This document shows, in pieces, positions 48,472 to 59,940 of a stretch of 64,000 bases of DNA. Origin of the DNA: Bryobacterales bacterium. GTDB taxonomy: Bacteria; Acidobacteriota; Terriglobia; Bryobacterales; Bryobacteraceae. Both the position numbers and the translations under genes were made by a program. Within the stretch, counting starts at the first letter, position 1; each line of letters opens with the position of its first letter. The stretch lies in the NCBI GenBank assembly GCA_003166865.1, contig PMUP01000050.1, forward strand, positions 28,283 through 92,282, read 5' to 3'. Below the pieces are notes generated by a model. It was not told where the DNA came from and did no database searches. It saw nothing but the letters and a program-made list of their open reading frames with translations.

Positions 48472-48507
48472 GAGGAATACAAGGAATACGAGGAATACTA
48501 GGAATAC
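48472..48507. repeat. Four 9-bp tandem repeats NAGGAATAC
   Basis: GAGGAATAC, AAGGAATAC, GAGGAATAC and TAGGAATAC run head to tail with no gap between two convergent genes. The last unit overlaps the stop codon of the tandem-hydrolase gene (48498-48500, minus strand). Likely a slipped-strand repeat; a terminator is not formed. Confidence 0.9.
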
Positions 48508-50327
48508 GGCGGGGCGACTTTGCGATCCAGCCAATCGCGCACCACGCCGAAGACTTCGTGATTGTTTTTCTCGAGCAACATCAAGTTGCCGTTGCCCACG
48601 ATGCCATAATCGCGTAGGCGTACCATCTCTGCCGAGCAACCCGCTTGCTTCAAAAACTCGACATTGGCCACGGGTGATCCGCCGCCGCCGAATTCGGTGG
48701 TGAGCCATCCAATCGGAATGCCCCGCAAGTTTTTCCACTTGCGCGCCGGTTCGGCTTGGAGCTTGAAGGGCGACACGACAGGGCGCGGTGAATCGGGCGG
48801 CGGGGTGTGGTCGACTAATTGGAACTGCGCGGGGTCGGTGACGGGCGGATCGTAAGCGATCGGGCTCGCCGTCAATCCCCAACGAAGTTGCTGGGCGAAT
48901 GGATTGCCGTTGATCTCCATGCAGAAGATGCCCTTGACGAGGTTGGGACGGCGGTCGGCCACGCCCCAGCCGAAGAATCCTCCGAAAGCGTGCGTGAGCA
49001 AAATGCAGGGACCGATGCGGTCCACCAACTCCACGCCGCCACGCCACGCAAGATCGCTGTGGAAGGCTTCGTCCATCACATTGCCGGATTCGTTGGCCAT
49101 GAACTGATCGATGAGCGGATCGTTCATGCCACCGGGACCGGGCCACTGCGCGGTGTTGAACACGACGGGCGTCTGCACCAGACCCTCGTAGGGCGGAACG
49201 TTCGGCAAATGGCTGGGACCGAGCGCGTCGGGATGATACGGCGAGCGGCCGTAACTCGGGCGATCCAGCCAATACACGCCGTAGCCTGCTTGCACAAAAT
49301 AGTGAACCCATCCGGGACGTCCGCCGATACCCATCATGTGGCAGCCCTGCCCGCCGCCGCCATGCACCATGACGACCGGATACTGGTAGCGCTTCTCGGC
49401 GGGGATCATGTACTGCACGTACATCTGCCCTTGCGCGATGGTTCCGTAGGGCATTGGTTTGCGTTGTACGCCGACCCAGAAGCAGCCTTGATCGGCGAGT
49501 TTGAGCGCGGTGGATTCGCGGTTGGGCTTGACCTCGACGGCGGGAGCGGGGACCGGCGGCGTTGCCTCAGAGAGCCTGTCCAGCTCGGCGCGCACCGATT
49601 CGGGTGATTGCTCGATCGCAACGATTCCCTTCACCAGGTTCGGGCGTTCTTGCGCGGTCACCCGCGCGAACGCCGCGCCGTCGCCCTGCGTGATCAGGAT
49701 GGCGGGGCCGATTTCATCGAGAAGCTTTGCTCCGCGCGTGCGCCAAATATTCTGCGTGAGTGGATTGTTGGGGGCCATCGGCTGGCCCATGGAGGCGACA
49801 ATTTGCGCGACGGCTGGAGCGTTGGTGTCGGCTACGCCCATATTGCGCGCGACGCTTTCGAAGGTGGGAGCTTGAGCATCGAAATAACCGTGCACCCAGG
49901 GATGATACGGATTGCGGCCTTGGCCGGGGCGATCGAGCACGTAAACCTTGTAGCCTTGTTCCAACAGGAGCGTGGCCCAGCCGCGGCGGCCGTCCGGCGT
50001 GCTGATCCAATCGGAGCCTTGTCCGTAGCCGCCATGGATCAGGACCACGGGATAGGGGTGGCGCACTTCGCGCGGAATCCAGTGCTCGACGTACATCTGC
50101 ATTCCGTTGCACATGGTTCCTCGGGCAAGCGTGGCGTGCTCGACGCCAAACCAGAAGTAGCTCCAGTCGGCGATATCGAGAATCGGGCCGGGCGCGACGG
50201 GCGTCGCAGGCAGGGTTTGCGCGGGCGCAGGGCGAGGAGCGGCAACGGCAGCCGCGGCTGTCATCAGAGCCGCCAGGTCACGGCGGGTAATCCCGGATTT
50301 CGGGAGGTCCATCATTACATCGGGCAT
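48498..50327 (-). CDS. Tat-exported tandem alpha/beta-hydrolase, both nucleophile sites degenerate
   Basis: A 609-residue protein with a twin-arginine-like signal (ITRRDLAALMTAAAA). Two homologous halves follow: about 45-250 and 275-605. Each has an FW-GV start, MYV, an oxyanion loop (VVLIHGGYGQG; VVMVHGGGGQG) and a RPxxGRxPYHP stretch. Each also has ILLT/ILIT followed by the nucleophile elbow and RPNLVKGI. In this family the elbow should hold Ser (T-H-S-x-G). Here it is TQGDG (Gly215) in half one and THAFGG (Ala447) in half two. The later GNGH, expected to carry the catalytic His, reads GNGN. So the fold is kept while catalysis is probably lost. A binding role is likely. Confidence 0.88.
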   Translation of the reverse strand: MPDVMMDLPKSGITRRDLAALMTAAAAVAAPRPAPAQTLPATPVAPGPILDIADWSYFWFGVEHATLARGTMCNGMQMYVEHWIPREVRHPYPVVLIHGGYGQGSDWISTPDGRRGWATLLLEQGYKVYVLDRPGQGRNPYHPWVHGYFDAQAPTFESVARNMGVADTNAPAVAQIVASMGQPMAPNNPLTQNIWRTRGAKLLDEIGPAILITQGDGAAFARVTAQERPNLVKGIVAIEQSPESVRAELDRLSEATPPVPAPAVEVKPNRESTALKLADQGCFWVGVQRKPMPYGTIAQGQMYVQYMIPAEKRYQYPVVMVHGGGGQGCHMMGIGGRPGWVHYFVQAGYGVYWLDRPSYGRSPYHPDALGPSHLPNVPPYEGLVQTPVVFNTAQWPGPGGMNDPLIDQFMANESGNVMDEAFHSDLAWRGGVELVDRIGPCILLTHAFGGFFGWGVADRRPNLVKGIFCMEINGNPFAQQLRWGLTASPIAYDPPVTDPAQFQLVDHTPPPDSPRPVVSPFKLQAEPARKWKNLRGIPIGWLTTEFGGGGSPVANVEFLKQAGCSAEMVRLRDYGIVGNGNLMLLEKNNHEVFGVVRDWLDRKVAPPYS

Positions 50328-50744: not shown

Positions 50745-52709
50745 TCAGTTCTTGCTCGTTTGGGAATCTCTCAATTCGAAGGGCGGCTGGGCTGGAACAA
50801 TCCGCCAGGGAAACGTAGTTTTGTTTCCCAAAGTAGGGTCCCAGCCGAAATGAATCTGCGAAGGCGCCGTAACCAAAAAACGCAGGTGGTGCCGCAGTAC
50901 GACCTTGCCGTTCCAGCTCACGGTCATGGTGCGGTCCTCCGGAGTAAATTCGAGTCCCACGCGGTTCAATCCGGGAGCGTAGGCGACGTCGACCCATTGC
51001 CAATCAGGCGACCGATAGGAAGTTTCGGAAAGCAACCTGATTCGACCGTCGCCCAGGCACCAGGACGATAACAGATAGCGAGTGCCGAATTCGCCCGTCG
51101 TTATCAGCGGCTCCTTGCTAGGTGCACAGGGCACAGGGAACTCGAACGAGGCCTGAACGCGAAGAGCTGGGTTCTCTAGCGGTCGAAAGCGCTCAAAGGG
51201 ACTGAACCATTTTGCAAGCCTCGTGTACGAGGCTGGGCTGGCCTGAACGAATTGATCGTACGGCCCCTGGACTGCAAGAGCCAGATTGGCGCTGATCGTG
51301 TAAAGGAGGAGACCAACCAGCGCCACGCCGGCAAGCGCACTGGCCCACTTTCGCAGAGACGCAACGAGCACGCATGCGATCACGCACGCGACGAACACCA
51401 GGAAGGGCGCGAAATCCACTTCGTACCGCTGCGACGTTAATCCGGTGGCGGCAAGGAATAGAATGCAGCCGGCGGTGAACGCAAGCATTGCTGAGACGAA
51501 CGCGAAAACGCCGCGGCTGCCTGCAAATCGCTTCCGGCAGAAGGGTATCAGCAAAGCGATCAATGCGATGGGGCTGAGGGCAAAAACACCGCCGGTAAGT
51601 TCCAGGAAGTAGCGTGCCGGCAGTACGTTAATCGCTGCGTCGAAAGGCTGGCGCAAGGCGAGCCGAAAAAACGGAAATTCCGCAACAAGATTCGGCGGGC
51701 ACAGGAGCAGGTAATAGAGGCCGGGTACGATATTTGCCATCGACAAGCGGATATTTTGATAAGAAGCCGCCCAGAGTTGATAGCGTGTCCCGAACTCCAG
51801 GGGATTGCCGAACCTTGCGTAGTTGTAGGCGGCAATCCCGAGGCAGCACGCGATGACCGGGAGGAAAAAGGGGAGAATGTCGCGCCGCAGGCGCTCCGAA
51901 TTCAGAATTCCGAATTCGACACGTGTGCCGGGGTCTCGAACCAAAAGCATAAGAAAGAACGCACACGCGGCCGCAAGACCCAAGTGCGGACGGCAGCCGA
52001 TCGCCAAACCGAAAGAAAGTCCGGAAAGCCCGGCCCACAGGGCTCGCGCGCGAGAGACGGTCAGCCAGCGGAAAAGAAAGTAGAAGCCCGCACTCACACA
52101 GCAAAATCCGCATGCAATCGCAACTTCATAGAGCTTAGCCCGGTGCAGCAAAAACGGTACCGACTGGCCAATGCCGAGAGCCAGCAAGCAAAGCGTCAAT
52201 AGCGTAACCGAGACGCGACTGGAAAAACGCGAGAGCATTTGTCTGAACAATACCGATAGGAAGAAATAGCCACCGAGCGCGAATAGAAACGCGGTGAAGT
52301 TTTCCGGCAGGTCGTGTGCGGTGAGCAGATACCACGGCGCGAACGATAGCAGCACGGGTACAGCTCCGTGATAAAGGTAGTAGTGCTGCTGGTAGAGCAC
52401 GGTATCCAGGAGCCGGTACGGTTCGTTGATACCTGCGTCCCATGGATTGTTGAGTGCAAGCAGTTCGGGCTGCGGTTGTACCGGAAGATACAGTTTTCCG
52501 TGTACGAATGCGCGTGCCAGCAGGTCGTAATATCCTTCTACCGCGTAACTTCCTTTAGCCACAGTGGGACCCGGCAAGCCGTAGTATTGGTCTAATCCAC
52601 TATTCCAGGCAAATCGCTCAGGCACGGCGCCGATGCCGATGACCCAGAAATAAAGGGCGCCCACGATGAGCAACGCTGCCATCCAAGCGACCCGATATTT
52701 GAGGTGCAC
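50745..52709 (-). CDS. Polytopic membrane protein, putative surface-glycan glycosyltransferase
   Basis: A 654-residue protein from GTG 52709, with GGGAGG five bases before it. At least ten membrane helices span residues about 10-490 (YRVAWMAALLIVGALYFWV first). A soluble C-terminal domain (about 510-654) follows. The layout resembles GT-C type glycosyltransferases, but no DxD or similar motif was pinned down by eye. Its 5' end (about 45 codons) is repeated at 58312-58480. Originally it probably followed directly on the GT2-methyltransferase gene that now starts 7 kb away. Likely acts in polysaccharide assembly. Confidence 0.75.
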   Translation of the reverse strand: MHLKYRVAWMAALLIVGALYFWVIGIGAVPERFAWNSGLDQYYGLPGPTVAKGSYAVEGYYDLLARAFVHGKLYLPVQPQPELLALNNPWDAGINEPYRLLDTVLYQQHYYLYHGAVPVLLSFAPWYLLTAHDLPENFTAFLFALGGYFFLSVLFRQMLSRFSSRVSVTLLTLCLLALGIGQSVPFLLHRAKLYEVAIACGFCCVSAGFYFLFRWLTVSRARALWAGLSGLSFGLAIGCRPHLGLAAACAFFLMLLVRDPGTRVEFGILNSERLRRDILPFFLPVIACCLGIAAYNYARFGNPLEFGTRYQLWAASYQNIRLSMANIVPGLYYLLLCPPNLVAEFPFFRLALRQPFDAAINVLPARYFLELTGGVFALSPIALIALLIPFCRKRFAGSRGVFAFVSAMLAFTAGCILFLAATGLTSQRYEVDFAPFLVFVACVIACVLVASLRKWASALAGVALVGLLLYTISANLALAVQGPYDQFVQASPASYTRLAKWFSPFERFRPLENPALRVQASFEFPVPCAPSKEPLITTGEFGTRYLLSSWCLGDGRIRLLSETSYRSPDWQWVDVAYAPGLNRVGLEFTPEDRTMTVSWNGKVVLRHHLRFLVTAPSQIHFGWDPTLGNKTTFPWRIVPAQPPFELRDSQTSKN

Positions 52710-52743
52710 GCACGCCTCCCTGGTCTACCTAGTTTATCGGAGA
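52572..52743. repeat. Direct repeat copy A (intact 5' end of membrane-protein gene)
   Basis: About 170 bp nearly matched by 58312-58480, same orientation. Shared runs include GGCGCCGATGCCGATGACCC, AAATAAAGGGCGCCCAC and CTACCTAGTTTATCGGAGA. Scattered substitutions and a few short indels separate the copies. Copy A holds the translation start and first ~45 codons of the intact gene plus its upstream leader. Confidence 0.9.
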
Positions 52744-53203
52744 ATAGCTGGGGCGCTCTGGCCCACACCCGTGATCAAGTCCTCCATCTCGCGGCAACGT
52801 GCCGCGAATCGTCCGTTGCAGAACTGAAAAGGCAACTGGATGAACTTGGCCCCGATGGGCTCTGGCTTGAAGGGGTCCGAACCTACCTGAGAGATCACGG
52901 ATTCGTTCAGAGTAACGACGAAAGTCTCGCAGAAACCACAGCGGGGCACTGGGGATCACCACTCCGGAACCAGCAGCGTGCATCGCTCAAGGTCGAATTA
53001 GGCTCCGTGTTGCTGGACCGGTTCAGGGAGCCAGGCGAGACTACCCATAACACGAATTAACGGGCGTGAGTACCGCCGGGGAAGTTCCGAGAACCAGACG
53101 TCCGGCTCGCATCCGGCAGTCTCACTTTCCGTATAACCCGTGATACAGGCCTTGGGACTGTCAGCACATTCCGCATGACTCCCTGACAGGCATTTCGCGG
53201 CAG
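52744..53203. other. Start of the inserted segment, no intact gene
   Basis: Open frames are short and unrecognised. One plus-strand frame reads AELKRQLDELGPDGLWLEGV and then, in a shifted frame, GALGITTPE, which could be a decayed helical protein. No signals for a working gene were seen. Confidence 0.4.
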
Positions 53204-53242
53204 TTGGGCAGAGTAAAATGTTACCCATTGGCCTGCTCTGTA

Positions 53243-53320
53243 GGTGACCGTCTCGGCCCCTACGAAATACTCGCGCCCATTGGCGCAGGCGGCATGGGCG
53301 AAGTGTATCGCGCACGCGAC
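53243..53320 (+). pseudogene. Ser/Thr protein kinase N-terminal fragment
   Basis: The frame reads GDRLGPYEILAPIGAGGMGE, then VYRARD, exactly the glycine-rich ATP loop that opens bacterial PknB-type kinases. It then diverges and stops at 53395. No Lys, HRD or DFG regions follow, so only the first ~26 codons remain. Confidence 0.65.
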
Positions 53321-53477
53321 CGTGGTGCTGAATTGGACCGCAGGTTTGAAGAAATAGCGGGCCAACTCCTGTATCATCCCCCATGCGGACAGTGAGAATC
53401 CTTGGCCTGGACGGCATTCTCAATGTACGTATCGCGGGTAATTCGGGACTTGAGCGCAAACCGCATCGTTCCGGTGA

Positions 53478-53606
53478 TACAGTGAGTCTCAAATGGCTCG
53501 GCTGCTGGGTCACGCTTCGGTCCAAACGACCGAGCGCTATCTTGGCACTAAACAGGATTTGGTGCACGCGCCCAACGACTCGATCAAGCTACGAGTACAC
53601 GTGTAG
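53478..53606 (+). pseudogene. Tyrosine recombinase C-terminal remnant (islet left end)
   Basis: A start-less frame reads MARLLGHASVQTTERYLGT, then KQDLVHAPNDSIKLRVHV and TAG at 53604-53606. GH(x7)TERY is the box II His and the catalytic Tyr of phage-type integrases. The Arg-bearing middle is missing. It complements the N-terminal/middle integrase piece at 57880-58311. Confidence 0.8.
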
Positions 53607-53775
53607 AAGCTTACAACTCCTCGCAACGTGCTGCCGCCGAAATTCAAGCACGCTGACAACATGGGTGCGCCGCACAACCAATCTTTAGGCAACCAACGTC
53701 TTTTTAGGTAGCCAACGTCGCGCGATCCATTGTTCTAGCACGAACAATAGCGCAAAAGGCGCTCAGCCCTAACAG

Positions 53776-54438
53776 TTAGCCGAAATGGTTATGACGCTTT
53801 TCCGCAATCAAGACTAGATACTCGCCCCACCAGATGGGACGATCAAACCTTTTCAGGACGGGAACCAGCGGAGCGGGAGTGTTGTTTTGGGAGATCATTC
53901 CGGTGGTGAGGGACTTAACCACCCGAAGTCCGGAGCTAGCAAGTTCCGCATCCAACCTTGCCATGCACGATTTCAAGACTCCTCGTTCAGCCCGAACGAC
54001 AAGCGAAAGAGCGAACATCAAGGGATTGTAGCGGTTCGGCTCGAGGAAAACCACGTATCGGCGGCTGGCACGCGCCATTTCCCTAATCACGCGCTCGCGG
54101 TCGTCTACATGGTGCAGCAAGTTAGCTTCGAACACGACGTCGAAATGTTCGTCCGGAAAGGGAAGCGAGGTCGCATCTCCACAGACCAGGCGAGAATGCG
54201 CGTTTTGGCCTAGCAGGTGACGCGAAAAATCTAGGCCCGTCACGTCCGCGCCAGCATTCGCAAACCTCAAAGTGAAGATTCCGTTTCCGCACCCCACGTC
54301 CAATACCCGTCCTCGTAACGGAACGTGTTGCTTTATGAACTGAACCTTGGGGTCCGCGTATGCGCCCACCACAGGATGCAGCGGATCGCGATAAGCGACC
54401 TGGTCAAAATACTCCGACTGCAACGCATTGTCACTCAT
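53776..54438 (-). CDS. SAM-dependent methyltransferase, class I
   Basis: About 220 residues from ATG 54438 (MSDNALQSEYFDQVAYRD); an upstream ATG at 54474 is possible. The SAM motif VLDVGCGNGIFTLRF, then GLDFS, then LVCGDATSLPFPDEHFDVVF and NLLHHVDD are those of class I methyltransferases. The tail (FDRPIWWGEYLVLIAEKR) is usual for glycan- or lipid-linked small-molecule methyltransferases near glycosyltransferase genes. It is 56 bp downstream of the second methyltransferase on the same strand. Substrate unknown. Confidence 0.88.
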   Translation of the reverse strand: MSDNALQSEYFDQVAYRDPLHPVVGAYADPKVQFIKQHVPLRGRVLDVGCGNGIFTLRFANAGADVTGLDFSRHLLGQNAHSRLVCGDATSLPFPDEHFDVVFEANLLHHVDDRERVIREMARASRRYVVFLEPNRYNPLMFALSLVVRAERGVLKSCMARLDAELASSGLRVVKSLTTGMISQNNTPAPLVPVLKRFDRPIWWGEYLVLIAEKRHNHFG

Positions 54439-54494
54439 TTCGAATTCTCTCTTGCGATGATTTGCTATCGGCATTAGAGACTGGAAGCGGGCTC

Positions 54495-55184
54495 TCAGCC
54501 GGACCGCCCGGGAGTACCAGCCAGCACGTAATACTGAGCACCCAACGGCACTTTTACAAACAACGGTTCGATAAAGCGAAGAGGCGCCAAAGCTTTTGGC
54601 ATGTAAAACAGAAAGCGCGTCCCGTATACGTGGAAGCCGGCTGCTTTGACTCGGGTGCGCGCTTCAAGAAATGACAGCGGGATCGCGTCGCGATCGAACG
54701 GAATCCGGCGCATCACCATTCGAGCGCCCGGATTCCACGGATTATTCTCAAAGAGGGCTAGGTGCGCACCCGGTGTGAGGAGTTCCCGGATCATCACCAG
54801 GGTTGACTGCCGCTCAGATGGAAGAATGTGGTGAAAGACTCCATTGATGTAACAGAGGTCGAACGGCTCCAGCCGCGGCAAATCAGCAATGTTCTCGAAC
54901 CTGACCCGATTCGAACCAAGAGTCATTTTCGCGTGCCGAAGGGCTTCCTGGGAAAGATCCGCTCCGACGATTTGGGCGGTTGGGAAAGCGTCGGCCAGCT
55001 TCGCGCAAGATTTCCCAGTCCCACAGCCGAAGTCCAAGATGCGGCGAGGACTGGGAGGTACTTGCGATCGCATGTCTTGAATCCGCCCCGAAATGAAAAA
55101 CTCCTGGTTCTCGCCGGACAAGCCAATGCCTCGGTTAAGCATGGCTTCATACTCAGCAGCCCGATCAAACAATTGTTCCGGCAT
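54495..55184 (-). CDS. SAM-dependent methyltransferase, class I
   Basis: The start at ATG 55184 (MPEQLFDRAAEYEAML) with GGAG ten bases upstream is preferred; the open frame reaches 55247 with a non-family N-terminus. About 229 residues. RILDFGCGTGKSCAKL is the SAM motif, followed by VGADLSQEAL and LCYINGVFHHI. It overlaps the end of the GT2 gene by 20 bases, so it is translated from the same message. Probably methylates a glycan or lipid precursor. Confidence 0.88.
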   Translation of the reverse strand: MPEQLFDRAAEYEAMLNRGIGLSGENQEFFISGRIQDMRSQVPPSPRRILDFGCGTGKSCAKLADAFPTAQIVGADLSQEALRHAKMTLGSNRVRFENIADLPRLEPFDLCYINGVFHHILPSERQSTLVMIRELLTPGAHLALFENNPWNPGARMVMRRIPFDRDAIPLSFLEARTRVKAAGFHVYGTRFLFYMPKALAPLRFIEPLFVKVPLGAQYYVLAGTPGRSG

Positions 55185-56433
55185 TTTTCTCAGTCTCCAG
55201 TTCAGCCGGCGGGGAGATATGGCTGCGCAACAGCAACGCCGTCCCAAACGTTTGCATCTTCAGATACTCCAGGCGGCTGCCGACCAGAGTGAGCACGTAA
55301 TCGATCGCTCGCGTAACCCACAGGATAATCGCCACCGCGAAGCAAAACGACATCACTACATATCTGGACCAGTGTTCATACGTCATACCCGTGGTCAGGC
55401 GGTCGAAAAGACTGGATACCACCAGCAGGCCGCCAACTACAGAGAAGCCAACCGGTACGGTCCAGAACCAGCGCGTTTGAAAGAGCCAGGTGCTCGAGCG
55501 GCTTCTTGCGCTACCCGACTCGTCAGCCAGGGCGATGGACGTCATGCGGCCGGTCAAATAACTTGCGCAGAAGCAAAGACAAGCTGTCATCCCAGAAAGG
55601 TCGCTGATCAGGAAACGGTAGATCATCCACTCCGCGACCGAGCGATTGCGAAAATAGTAAAGCATGGGAGACCACATGAGCGCGGCCGCGAAGACCGCAA
55701 AAACAATTGCCAACAGACCCAGCGGACGCGACGGGCGATAGAGGAACGCGGCTTCCAGGATAACTTTTAGGAAACGCAAACCGTCCTTGGCGACCCTCAG
55801 CTTCGATTCTCCGGATCGCTCGTGATACGGCATGTCCACCTCAACGATTCTGGTGCCCTCACTCAGCATCGCGCGCGCGCTCATGGCAGGCGTGAAGTGC
55901 AACCCGTCCGGGAGTGGATACAGACGGTCCAGGCTGGACCTTCGTACAACGCGCATGCCGCTGGCAGTGTCGCGAACGGACGAGGAGGAGAAGACGCTCA
56001 GGATGGTGGCAAAAATGAAGTTCCCGATTCTACGGATCGGCGGCATCTGGCTGTTCGTATTCAAGCGGCAGCCCAGCACCACGTCCGCGTTTTCAGCCAC
56101 GGCGGTTTTACACAGCGTCGCGAAGAACTTCGGGTCGCAGGTTCCGTCGGCATCGAGGAACCCCAGCAGATCTGCGTCGGACTGCCGCCAAGCCTCTTTG
56201 ATTGCAGCGCCGTAGCCTTTATTTTGCGGGAAGACGATGAGATTGATAGAGTCCGTATGCTGGCTGGCTCGCTCCACGGTGCGATCGGTGGACCCGTCAC
56301 TGACCACCGTGATGGCCACTTCGGTGGCCGGCGAATTCGCGCAGATAAACTCGCGCGCCTCGATCGATCTCCGAATGATGGAGTCGATGCTTTCTTCTTC
56401 ATTCAGCGCCGGTATGGCAATTAGCAATTTCAT
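55165..56433 (-). CDS. GT2-type glycosyltransferase with C-terminal membrane domain
   Basis: A 422-residue protein. The GT-A part has LLIAIPALNEEESID, TVVSDGSTDRTVERA, FLDADGTCDP (D-x-D type) and YHERSGESKLRVAKDGLRFLK, as in dolichol-phosphate mannose synthase-like enzymes. From about residue 230 there are four to six membrane helices. Such enzymes load a sugar from a nucleotide donor on a polyprenyl phosphate. galE lies 18 bp upstream and could supply the sugar donor. Second gene of the galE-GT2-MT-MT operon. Confidence 0.92.
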   Translation of the reverse strand: MKLLIAIPALNEEESIDSIIRRSIEAREFICANSPATEVAITVVSDGSTDRTVERASQHTDSINLIVFPQNKGYGAAIKEAWRQSDADLLGFLDADGTCDPKFFATLCKTAVAENADVVLGCRLNTNSQMPPIRRIGNFIFATILSVFSSSSVRDTASGMRVVRRSSLDRLYPLPDGLHFTPAMSARAMLSEGTRIVEVDMPYHERSGESKLRVAKDGLRFLKVILEAAFLYRPSRPLGLLAIVFAVFAAALMWSPMLYYFRNRSVAEWMIYRFLISDLSGMTACLCFCASYLTGRMTSIALADESGSARSRSSTWLFQTRWFWTVPVGFSVVGGLLVVSSLFDRLTTGMTYEHWSRYVVMSFCFAVAIILWVTRAIDYVLTLVGSRLEYLKMQTFGTALLLRSHISPPAELETEKNAGTIV

Positions 56434-56451
56434 GAGCCTCTTACCTGCACT

Positions 56452-57483
56452 TTAGCTATCGGTATTGCACATCCTTGCCTCCACGGCGGCGCCGTGAAGT
56501 GCTGTATGCCAACTCCACGCGGTCTGAACGATGCTGCCGAGATCGGAATAGCGCGGGCGCCATCCTGGGCGCCGTACCGCTTCCTTGGCGTCCGCTAACA
56601 ACTCGGCGGGATCGCCAGCCCGGCGGGGGTGGTCCTTAAACGGGACTTTTCGCCCGCTGGCGTGCTCGATTGCCGAAATAACTTGTCGCACAGAGTGCCC
56701 CGTTCCCGTGCCGAGATTGAATGCCGCCGGCGCTCCGCCCGACTCGAGATACTGCATTGCGGCCACGTGAGCATCGGCTAGATCAGTCACATGAATATAA
56801 TCGCGCACCGCTGTGCCGTCTATGGTGTCATAATCCGTGCCATAGACTTCCATGGTGGACCGAGAGCCAAGCGCCGCAGCAATGATGCGCGGAATCAGGT
56901 GCGGTTCAGGCTCGTGCATCTCACCGAGTTCCCCCTCCGGGTCAGCGCCCGCAGCGTTGAAATAGCGCAAAATCGAGTATCGCAGACCGTACGCGCGGGC
57001 ATACCAGAACAGCGTCTTTTCCACCATGAGCTTGGATTCGCCATAAGGATTGACAGGCTGCTGGGGATGCTCCTCCGTAATGGGGATCGTCTTGGGGTGG
57101 CCGTAAGTCGCGCAGGAGGATGAGAAAACGATGCTGGCGACGCCGTGGTCCAGCATACTCTCAAGCAAACTCAGAGTACCGCCCACATTGTTCTGAAAAT
57201 ACAATTGCGGTGCACCCATGGACTCGCCGACGTAAGCACCGCCTGCAAAGTGGATTACTGCCGCGATCGGATAAGTTTCGAAGACCCTATTCAGCGCAGT
57301 CTTGTCCGCCAGATCTGTTTCGATGAACGGTCCCCATCGTACTGCCGATCGGTGGCCGGTCCGCAGATCGTCGACAACAACCGGATAGTAGCCTGCGCGA
57401 GCTAGCGCCTTAGCGCTATGACTACCAATGTACCCGGCGCCGCCAGTGATCAGAACATCGATACGGTCTCGCGAATCAACCAC
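56452..57483 (-). CDS. galE: UDP-glucose 4-epimerase
   Basis: The GTG at 57483 is chosen because AAAGGA lies seven bases before it and it gives the usual length (343 residues); a TTG at 57519 is also in frame. The dinucleotide motif VLITGGAGYIGSH is followed by IHFAGGAYVGES, the Ser in VFSSSCATYG and YGESK (Tyr-x3-Lys), then YFNAAGADPEGELGE and the C-terminal GWRPRYSDL. All catalytic residues of GalE are in place. It interconverts UDP-glucose and UDP-galactose, feeding the GT2 gene 18 bp downstream. Confidence 0.94.
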   Translation of the reverse strand: MVDSRDRIDVLITGGAGYIGSHSAKALARAGYYPVVVDDLRTGHRSAVRWGPFIETDLADKTALNRVFETYPIAAVIHFAGGAYVGESMGAPQLYFQNNVGGTLSLLESMLDHGVASIVFSSSCATYGHPKTIPITEEHPQQPVNPYGESKLMVEKTLFWYARAYGLRYSILRYFNAAGADPEGELGEMHEPEPHLIPRIIAAALGSRSTMEVYGTDYDTIDGTAVRDYIHVTDLADAHVAAMQYLESGGAPAAFNLGTGTGHSVRQVISAIEHASGRKVPFKDHPRRAGDPAELLADAKEAVRRPGWRPRYSDLGSIVQTAWSWHTALHGAAVEARMCNTDS

Positions 57484-57519
57484 CGCCCTGTCCTTTCGTA
57501 GGTATTCCCTAGTGGGCAA

Positions 57520-57875
57520 AAATAGTAGAGCTGAAGGCTCCAGCCTTGATGTTCACGATAACAAAGTAAGGGTTGCGAGTGGTTGCGATGGGATGTCGCA
57601 CTGCGGGTGGCCAGTTCCAGCACGGAGCTGCCCGTGCTGGTGTGACGGCCATAGGGAGATCGGAACCTCGCGTTGCTGGTGTACCTCCCAGATCATTTCT
57701 ACGAATCCCGAGGATGAAGGCCGCATTCTACCGACGATCCGAAGATTCAATACGAGGGCGATCAGCCCACTGGAACCCGTTACGAGAACTGTGCGTCCCA
57801 TGAATTCAGTACCCTCCGTTGGGTCGCAATGCTGCTGCCCAGCAGAGGCAGTTGGTGTGATCGAGAATATAGCTT
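57520..57875. other. Intergenic, one gene-start fragment
   Basis: No intact gene. It contains the first codons of an epimerase-like gene (57760-57801, minus) and otherwise unrecognised sequence. Part of the inserted segment. Confidence 0.45.
57760..57801 (-). pseudogene. NAD-dependent epimerase/dehydratase, N-terminal stub
   Basis: ATG 57801 opens MGRTVLVTGSSGLI, the start of the Rossmann GxxGxxG motif of SDR epimerases, after which the sequence is unrelated and the frame stops at 57553. Only ~14 family-like codons remain. Because the match is short, chance similarity is not excluded. Confidence 0.4.
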
Positions 57876-57879
57876 ATGG

Positions 57880-58311
57880 GCCTTCGACTTCGTATTAGTC
57901 GCGTGAAGAGCGTGAAATCGACTGGCATCCGCGTTGGGAACTGGTTGTCGCAGCGCCAGGCCCAAGCACTTCTCAGTGCCGAACATTGCGACGGTTCGCG
58001 GTCTCCGCGATCGCGCTATTCTTGCCGTCCCTCTGGGCTGCGGTCTCCTGCGGGGTCGCGGCGCTCACGTTCGCGCATGTCCAACGACGCGACGGCCGTT
58101 GGCGCATCGTCGATCTCAGGGGAAAGCACGGCCGCGTCCGCACGACGCCGATGCCGACTTGGGTCAAGGTGGCGATTGATGCTTGGACTTCCGCGGGTGG
58201 AGTCGTTGAAGGCTATGTCTTCCGGCCCGTGAGTCGCGCCGATCGAGTTGCGGGCGATCGATTGGGCGAGAAGGTGGTATGGCAAATGCTCCGGGAGTAT
58301 GCGGCGGGGCT
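57880..58311 (+). pseudogene. Tyrosine recombinase N-terminal/middle remnant (islet right end), two frameshifts
   Basis: Three frames join up. The first has STGIRVGNWLSQRQAQALL (to about 57970). The second has NIATVRGLRDRAILAV and LGCGLLR (to about 58050). The third has VAALTFAHVQRRDGRWRIVD, LRGKHGRVRTTPMP and VWQMLREYAAGL (to about 58311). This is the integrase SAM-like N domain followed by the first part of the catalytic domain (GLRDRAxxxxLxGCGLRRSE region with the Arg area). The remaining catalytic end is not here; a matching end is at 53478-53606. The last few codons read into direct repeat copy B. Confidence 0.75.
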
Positions 58312-58480
58312 CGGCAAGCCGTAGAGTCTGTCTAAGTCACTGTTCCAGGCAAATCGCCTAGGTTCGGCGCCGATGCCGATGACCCAGAAATAAAGGGCGC
58401 CCACAATGAGCAACGCCGCGAGCGGCGATCCGATACTTGGGGTGCACGCACGCCTCCTGGGCTACCTAGTTTATCGGAGA
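58312..58480. repeat. Direct repeat copy B (decayed 5' end of membrane-protein gene)
   Basis: Matches 52572-52743. On the minus strand its translation reads LIVGALYFWVIGIGAEPRRF, clearly the N-terminus of the membrane protein of 50745-52709 with changes, but it loses the frame soon after. The stop codon of the GT2-methyltransferase gene (58466-58468) lies inside it. So this copy is the original junction between that gene and the membrane-protein gene. Confidence 0.9.
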
Positions 58481-59896
58481 CTCCTTGATGGCTCCCTTGA
58501 TACCGACGGCGATTATGGAGGTTGGACTCCAGGGTAAGGAGTCGTCGATCCGGCGCCACAGCCACACTAACCGGTCGAAGTTCTTAAGCTGCAAGCGGCT
58601 GATGGTCCTTCGTTTCAAAATAGTTCCGTTGAGCCACCAGCCTGGCCGGGAAGCCCGGTTAAAGCGTAAGACCTTGTGCACGTCGAAACCGGCATCGGTC
58701 ATTCTTTGACGTAACTGATCTTCGGAGTACCGCCGAAAGTGCCCTAGTTCCTCATCGAGGGAATTGAAGATGCTCTGTCCCTCGGGGACCAGAATCACCG
58801 CACGGCCGCCTGGTTCGAGCATCGAACGAATGTTTCGCAAGGCCTCGAGGTCGTCTTCGATGTGCTCCAGAACATTGAGGCACACCACGGTATCCATCTG
58901 GCCGCTGAATGCTGCATGGCCTTGCGGATCAGCCGCGTTCAGTTCCGCGGTTTCGAGACGGGGCCGCTCGGAAAGGCGGCTTCTGAGACGCTCCAGGTGT
59001 TCACAATCGATGTCGGTGGCGACGTACCTCTTTCGCCCCGCTAAGAGCAGGCGTGTGAGATTGCCCATGCCGGCCCCGATTTCGATGACCCTTTTCCCGA
59101 TGTACGGATGGATGGTATCGGCCATCCATCGATTGAAATGCGGCGCACTGGCAAAGGCATCCAGAATATCCTTGTCTTTGGCTACATAAATATCGTTCGA
59201 AAGCGAAGTCTTGAGAATCACCCAGAAGGCTTCGAAGGCATCCTTCAAGCCGATCTTCTTGCCCTCCTCATAAGTTCGCCCGCTGTAGCTGATGGGGGTC
59301 TCATAGATGCGGGCCTGCCGCTTGGCCAGCTTGATGGTGATCTCGGGTTCGAATCCAAAACGTTGGCTCCGCACTGGAATACTCCGCAGAAGAGACGTGC
59401 GAAAAGCTTTATAGCAGGTTTCCATATCCGTGAGATTCAGATCCGCGAACACGTTGCACATTCCCGTCAACAGATGATTGGCGAGTGAATGCCAGAAGTA
59501 CAGAACACGCCTCTCGCCGCTGGTCAGAAACCGCGAACCGAATACTGCGTCGGCGCGCCCATCCATCAATGGACCCAAGAGCTTCGAGTACTCATTGGGG
59601 TTGTATTCGAGATCGGCGTCCTGGATGATGCAGAATTCCCCGTGCGCCTCCCCAATCGCCCGGCGAATGGCTGCTCCCTTGCCTTGATTGCGGGTGGTCT
59701 TCAGCAAGCGAATTGCGCCTGGGTATTTCTCCGCGACGGCTTCCACTTCCTGCAGGGAGGCGTCCGTTGAGCCATCATCAACGACGATGATCTCCCGTTC
59801 GACACCCTCCGGCAGCGGAGCGGCGATAACTCGCTCCAGCAAGGTCGCTACAAACTCCTCCTCGTTGTACAGCGGTACCAGAATCGAGAATTTCAT
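58466..59896 (-). CDS. Fused GT2 glycosyltransferase - SAM methyltransferase
   Basis: About 476 residues from ATG 59896 (MKFSILVPLYNEEEFV); a GTG at 59917 is in frame. The N-terminal GT2 (about 1-245) has VVDDGSTDASLQEV, IQDADLEYNPNEY, GSRFLTSGERR and DMETCYKAFR, as in polyprenyl-phosphate-sugar synthases. The C-terminal part (about 255-470) is a class I methyltransferase: VIEIGAGMGNLTRLL, VVCLNVLEHIEDD, PEGQSIFNSLDEELGHFRR. It would both transfer and methylate, or modify, a sugar. It ends in repeat copy B. Probably cytoplasmic side of the membrane. Confidence 0.9.
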   Translation of the reverse strand: MKFSILVPLYNEEEFVATLLERVIAAPLPEGVEREIIVVDDGSTDASLQEVEAVAEKYPGAIRLLKTTRNQGKGAAIRRAIGEAHGEFCIIQDADLEYNPNEYSKLLGPLMDGRADAVFGSRFLTSGERRVLYFWHSLANHLLTGMCNVFADLNLTDMETCYKAFRTSLLRSIPVRSQRFGFEPEITIKLAKRQARIYETPISYSGRTYEEGKKIGLKDAFEAFWVILKTSLSNDIYVAKDKDILDAFASAPHFNRWMADTIHPYIGKRVIEIGAGMGNLTRLLLAGRKRYVATDIDCEHLERLRSRLSERPRLETAELNAADPQGHAAFSGQMDTVVCLNVLEHIEDDLEALRNIRSMLEPGGRAVILVPEGQSIFNSLDEELGHFRRYSEDQLRQRMTDAGFDVHKVLRFNRASRPGWWLNGTILKRRTISRLQLKNFDRLVWLWRRIDDSLPWSPTSIIAVGIKGAIKESPIN

Positions 59897-59940
59897 CCGT
59901 TCTTCATCATCGAACACCAGGAGCGGCGCGTGGGAGACCT

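Follow-up and report, generated by a model that had tools for sequence, protein, structure and literature searches.

The window analysed here is a 64,000-nucleotide stretch of DNA from a Bryobacterales bacterium (positions 28283-92282 of contig C73 in the draft genome G000, an assembly of 6.67 Mb in 107 contigs, 95.9% complete). On its minus strand, the gene for a family-2 glycosyltransferase fused to a methyltransferase domain (GT2-MT) and the gene for a membrane protein (mem) are separated by an islet of four intact glycan genes, encoding a UDP-glucose 4-epimerase (galE), a family-2 glycosyltransferase (GT2), and two methyltransferases (MT1 and MT2); these are framed by gene debris, which reads on the plus strand, and the whole lies between two diverged copies of one stretch of sequence, the junction repeat (Table 1). 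In the direction of transcription, the order is GT2-MT, the outer junction copy with a stump of mem, the core piece of an integrase gene, galE, GT2, MT2, MT1, the C-terminal piece of an integrase gene, a 5' fragment of a kinase-like gene, a truncated DUF gene, the inner junction copy, and the intact mem gene. The insert itself (52744-58305; 5,562 bp) consists of 3,744 bp of cargo, 1,032 bp of left debris, and 786 bp of right debris. We regard the islet as a readable, fairly ordinary scar of old gene acquisition.

The junction repeat

The inner copy starts with TCTCCGATAAACTAG, the last 15 bp of GT2-MT, here detached from the gene, and extends over the first hydrophobic segment of mem (residues 11-29); the outer copy leads from GT2-MT into the first codons of mem. 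The spacing between the two genes is 18 bp in the outer copy and 19 bp in the inner one. In genome G005, a GT2-MT relative of 75% identity ends in NPLN*, compared to SPIN* in the window gene; the 15 bp thus look native to GT2-MT. Since a 3' end of GT2-MT is stranded in the inner copy, and a 5' end of mem in the outer one, the repeat itself, with no relative showing this order, indicates that the two genes were formerly neighbours. The earlier note on this sequence, made from the letters alone, had reached the same view of the old adjacency and had recognized the two copies as one stretch, diverged, with the GT2-MT stop still in the outer one; its limits prove exact on the GT2-MT side and right within 6 bases on the mem side, the repeat covering about 48 codons of mem. 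Over 175 aligned bases the copies differ by 22 substitutions; one gap of 1 nt and one of 2 nt separate them in addition. The ungapped core of the repeat is 114 nt long, at 87% identity.

A search of the organism's own draft genome returns the second copy at E = 3.6e-52 and no third one, giving two places in total; when both copies are compared to 188 loci, the matches are confined to loci of the same region. A scan of the whole window for direct repeats (seed 12, at least 40 nt) yields three families, and in the two besides the junction repeat the copies lie at distances of 672 and 969 bp.

The differences between the copies comprise 21 in the mem frame, distributed over codon positions 1, 2, and 3 as 6, 7, and 8, and one more in the leader; there is thus no excess at third positions. 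The probability of finding at most 8 of 21 changes at position 3 is 0.76, 0.19, 0.04, or 0.002 for an expected share of 33, 50, 60, or 70%, respectively. By this measure, decay of the outer copy after a duplication would fit the codon positions better than would a meeting of two homologues that were each functional. Changes have occurred in both copies: the outer one has DL where the inner one has GL (DL being found in four of seven mem relatives), and the inner one keeps YY where the outer one has LY.

Cargo, debris, and joints

Table 1. Features of the islet and its two flanking genes, with positions given in the window.
Feature	Position	Strand	Description
mem, 654-residue membrane protein	50745-52709	-	10 hydrophobic segments (simple hydropathy scan)
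Inner junction copy	52566-52743	-	last 15 bp of GT2-MT, a 19-bp leader containing GGGAGG, and the first 48 codons of intact mem
DUF, 5'-truncated copy of a short gene	52747-53065	+	85% match to a longer copy at another place on this contig
Ser/Thr-kinase-like gene, 5' fragment (GDRLGPYEILAPIGAGGMGEVYRARD)	53236-53320	+	own-genome matches to query bases 493-578
Integrase C-terminal piece	53490-53606	+	89% over residues 121-147 of the G001 relative also matched by the core piece, at 53490-53570
MT1, S-adenosylmethionine (SAM) methyltransferase	53776-54474	-	PF08241
MT2, SAM methyltransferase	54495-55247	-	PF08242; adjoins a GT2 relative in L115, L116, L117, L118
GT2 glycosyltransferase	55165-56433	-	PF00535; 65% relatives in G299 and G287
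galE, UDP-glucose 4-epimerase	56452-57519	-	TIGR01179, 430.8 bits against a cut-off of 262.3 (NCBIfam)
Integrase core piece	58031-58321	+	71% over residues 1-97 of the G001 relative; extends into the repeat
Outer junction copy	58306-58480	-	continuous with the GT2-MT gene; mem stump, 1-nt leader gap and 2-nt frameshifting gap
GT2-MT, family-2 glycosyltransferase fused to a SAM methyltransferase domain	58466-59917	-	Pfam PF00535 and PF13489

The earlier note had listed the four cargo genes, all of which are open and intact, and had overlooked the truncated DUF and kinase-like genes at the left end. Judged by their families, the cargo proteins probably contribute to a surface glycan pathway a step in which sugars are modified, by epimerase, glycosyltransferase, and methylation. 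GT2 and MT2 are paired in four of the six GT2 regions examined (those listed in Table 1); in the remaining two (L119 and L120) a galE relative adjoins GT2 in place of MT2, and none of the six regions has an MT1 match at 1e-8. Comparisons were made with 61 relatives, with 399 genomes of the class drawn from a larger group, and with additional genome contigs reached by pattern search; the GT2 protein, taken by itself, is rare, being found at E<=1e-40 in 6 of the 399 class genomes, the organism's own included. With the TTG start as listed, MT2 shares 83 bp with the end of the GT2 gene; if it began at a later ATG, the two would overlap only slightly.

The GC content at third codon positions is 0.62 for MT1, 0.61 for MT2, 0.71 for GT2, and 0.64 for galE, and 0.65 for mem and 0.68 for GT2-MT, compared to 0.69-0.79 for 16 other chosen genes of the window. 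Since three of the four cargo genes, mem, and GT2-MT all fall below the latter range, the insert is not set apart from its neighbours, and the composition check that the earlier note proposed gives no separation; GT2-MT and mem may themselves be old acquisitions. Promoter-like sites number 2, against 2.9 expected from shuffled sequences, and terminator-like sites 8, against 5.5.

The integrase pieces are complementary, non-overlapping parts of one tyrosine-recombinase family; both are truncated and one is frameshifted. The core piece has further homology in other frames, with matches to a relative in G024 from 57894 on, and the C-terminal piece stays open to a stop at 53604-53606; the insert thus holds no intact integrase gene, only truncated pieces, the core one in several frames. 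The G001 relative to which both correspond belongs to PF00589, while the pieces themselves match no Pfam family at 0.01 or 0.1, and the best PHROGs match of the core piece is a family of unknown function (E 0.0023), integrase families appearing only at 0.04; it is therefore the relatives that give the pieces their label. Integrase pieces had been reported from inside each end, and they are real on both sides; the right one, however, runs into the repeat, and the left one starts only about 750 bp into the insert. In another genome (L147:6911-9899, on G024:C116), two tyrosine-recombinase genes of the same family stand in tandem, an arrangement that could seed integrase fragments like those of the window.

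Both edges of the insert cut genes: DUF lacks its 5' part at 52747, and the integrase lacks its end at about 58320. On the left, likeness to the longer DUF copy (C73:168305-168625, which has no family in Pfam, NCBIfam, or PHROGs) starts 3 bases past the repeat. The DUF copy breaks off at 53063-53065, where two other copies in the same genome continue alike; the left debris thus holds at least one further joint. Stretches of 67-88 bp near the DUF 3' end recur in the genome (window 52976-53063, L107:6375-6461, L088:1501-1566, L105:8306-8392), the L105 and L107 copies being the ones that continue alike past the point where the window copy stops. The kinase-like stretch is widely repeated in the genome; its kinase label is a presumptive one, taken from the glycine-rich motif. 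On the right, the integrase reading reaches 58321, inside the repeat. Integrase relatives in L129 and L144 code for GLGK at this edge, and the L129 sequence GGGCTCGGCAAG is identical to that of the window, so integrase and mem may share 7-10 bp at the joint (CGGCAAG, up to CGGCAAGCCG). The nearest integrase relatives (L122 and L123) lack the CGGCAAG bases, which leaves this microhomology uncertain and the exact joint not fixed.

The locus in other genomes

The earlier note had proposed looking for relatives in which GT2-MT and mem adjoin without the insert. All of the 61 relatives have some match to GT2-MT, and the regions of the 15 best, among the matches listed, were examined (57-75% identical); the wider contig search gave 94 pattern matches, 23 of them relatives (29-75%). 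In none of these 38 loci does a mem match occur at E<=1e-3, where three of them (L168, L170, and L173) offer at most 200 bp of downstream sequence and two (L101 and L165) have the same length and match and are apparently one contig. The closest named GT2-MT relatives (61-75% identical) belong to Bryobacterales and other Acidobacteria. Downstream of GT2-MT, the next gene varies between genomes; in G005 it starts after 12 bp and is presumably asparagine-synthase-like, judging by its sequence.

The mem protein itself is found, among the 61 relatives, only in the organism's own genome. In the class it occurs in 17 of the 399 genomes, the own one included, the other 16 copies being 29-48% identical, and the wider contig search gave 33 pattern matches to it, none of them relatives. 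In the 12 mem regions examined, no GT2-MT adjoins mem, apart from methyltransferase-domain matches in L034 (1e-8). The protein belongs to no family in Pfam or NCBIfam at 0.01, and its best matches among sequences in the PDB (13 distinct, E 0.07-0.51) are all acetylcholine-receptor subunits, which we consider noise; it has no solved relative there.

Two further genes flanking the islet were followed at E<=1e-80 in 31 genomes each: one for an FAD (flavin adenine dinucleotide) oxidoreductase, present in 5 of 31 including the own genome, and one for a hydrolase, present in 1 of 31, the own genome only. In G002 and G003, the oxidoreductase copies lie on contigs other than that of GT2-MT. As no mem match occurs at the 38 GT2-MT loci and the flanking genes do not stay together in those relatives in which they were sought, the gene order at the window locus looks lineage-specific. 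A hydrolase-like gene (window 48498-50327; the label is our inference) consists of two similar halves, an internal gene duplication, seen as a direct repeat of 72% identity in DNA at a distance of 672 bp (49343 and 50015) and as a protein self-match of 39%.

Origin of the insert

We favour, with middling confidence, the reading that the 5,562-bp mosaic was captured between GT2-MT and mem by an old illegitimate, possibly homology-assisted, recombination, in which the junction was duplicated. A segment combining the four glycan genes with pieces of truncated genes would have entered by illegitimate recombination, alone or aided by sequence homology at the junction, leaving the GT2-MT/mem junction, at least 175 bp of it, on either side. 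The inner copy, which keeps the start and the ribosome-binding region of mem, would have allowed mem to survive and presumably to remain expressed, while the outer copy, released from selection, would have decayed into the frameshifted stump. That both joints hold debris speaks for a recombination in which no dedicated enzyme took part; since the genome encodes a Ku protein, end joining is a possible route. Homology-facilitated illegitimate recombination would place one joint in homologous sequence and the other where homology is slight or lacking; at the integrase joint, 7-10 bp may be shared.

Several observations weigh against this reading. As an empty site was not found, it is the repeat that has to carry the history of the insertion; the composition of the cargo resembles that of GT2-MT and mem, so that the insert is not marked as foreign; the third-position test is weak, 21 changes being few and a share of 50% compatible with them; and at the right joint the shared bases are missing from the nearest integrase relatives. 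According to a passage of PMC2884548, hardly any prokaryotes, a few species excepted, have end joining. Two separate events, furthermore, would give the same picture as one, and one genome cannot tell them apart; of the earlier note's claim that the segment was inserted with duplication of the junction, the duplication is thus plain, while the number of events may be one or two.

Two steps are a possible, although less probable, history: a tandem duplication over the junction, perhaps of the whole mem gene or the operon, the middle of which was later replaced by foreign and local DNA, so that the 175 bp would be the only remnant of a longer duplication. Both edges of the repeat are joints with unrelated debris, and neither need therefore be an original limit of the duplication. 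Tandem duplications are described as common among bacteria, and transformation as one of their triggers (from the available text of PMC3784515); small duplications of old date are said to abound in the Solibacter genome (likewise for PMC3174227). A search of the organism's own genome nevertheless found no extra piece of mem besides the intact gene and the stump, and no other long direct repeat was found in the region.

Unlikely, in our view, is a gene-sparing insertion, in which a break took up foreign DNA while about 175 bp at its ends were copied, or were patched with a captured copy of the junction, such that the gene next to it retained both its start and its ribosome-binding region. If this were true, and repeated at other loci of Ku-bearing Acidobacteria, capture with duplication of a long junction would constitute a recognizable route of islet gain without an integrase.

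In a patched version of events, which we consider quite improbable, mem would have been interrupted by the insert at about codon 48, and a junction copy, likewise captured, would have provided a new start, fused in frame to the rest of mem. An alignment with seven mem relatives (36-46% identical, one row incomplete) bears on this: between W35 and the conserved G59-Y60-Y61, the window protein has 23 residues (codons 36-58; window 52536-52604) where all seven relatives have 5 or 6, approximately 17 more, and the edge of the repeat at codon 48 lies within this longer stretch. The motif YYxL, moreover, occurs twice in mem, 54 bp apart, with the second occurrence downstream; the two agree in 17 of 24 nt, a result equalled by 26 of 1000 shuffles. 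The extra stretch is thus suggestive of a fusion scar, no more: the repeat edge falls inside it rather than at its border, the additional residues may be an ordinary indel of the lineage, and the likeness in DNA is weak, some of it following from the protein motif that the two places have in common.

Very doubtful is the insertion by its own means of an integrase-bearing element, an island or a circle, of which the pieces would be the remains and the repeats the attachment sites. The complementary pieces do flank the cargo in the order expected of a circle opened within the integrase gene, which is a weak point in its favour; yet between the repeat and the left piece lie about 750 bp with debris of the DUF and kinase-like genes, the repeats consist of coding junction over 175 bp, with a divergence of 13% and no further copy found in the genome, and none of the four regions with a GT2/MT2 pair (L115-L118) has an integrase match. 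In integrase-driven islands the attachment repeats are short and nearly identical, and a tRNA gene is often their site; the repeats here are 175 bp of coding junction and 87% alike, and no scan for tRNA genes was made. Site-specific integration is unlikely, as the integrase is dead and the repeats are coding, and the pieces, being decayed parts, are no proof that an integrase made the insertion; as a mechanism it is not supported. Transposition is unlikely as well: transposons carry terminal inverted repeats or flanking insertion sequences and make a short target duplication, far below 175 bp, and none of the 15 inverted pairs of at least 18 nt within 50-61 kb of the window frames the insert, whose flanking repeats are 175 bp long.

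As a single case, the islet does not yet indicate a general mechanism; its value is that of a readable fossil, in which a stump and a detached gene tail reveal an earlier gene order without any relative. Among the titles and openings of abstracts listed, none describes long junction duplications around bacterial islets, and the islet is best compared to three known systems, each cited from the available text of its source. Candidatus Solibacter usitatus (PMC3174227) likewise offers an acidobacterial genome with decayed islands, phage-integrase genes without an intact prophage, low-GC patches, and old duplications; it differs in that no junction-duplicating islet is described in that text. The merodiploid tandem duplications formed in natural transformation (PMC3784515) are alike in that the uptake of partly homologous DNA leaves duplicated sequence around the joint, but they span about 100-900 kb and involve homologous pairing between repeats, whereas the islet has a repeat of 175 bp and debris at both joints. 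In small variable segments (PMC2884548), 66-94% of the repeats are shorter than 30 bp, in contrast to the 175 bp, diverged, of the islet, for which no sister genome in the alternative state was found; in return, they too are short, lie between genes that are conserved, have direct repeats on either side, and find no explanation in a transposon or phage, and they are attributed to illegitimate or homology-assisted recombination.

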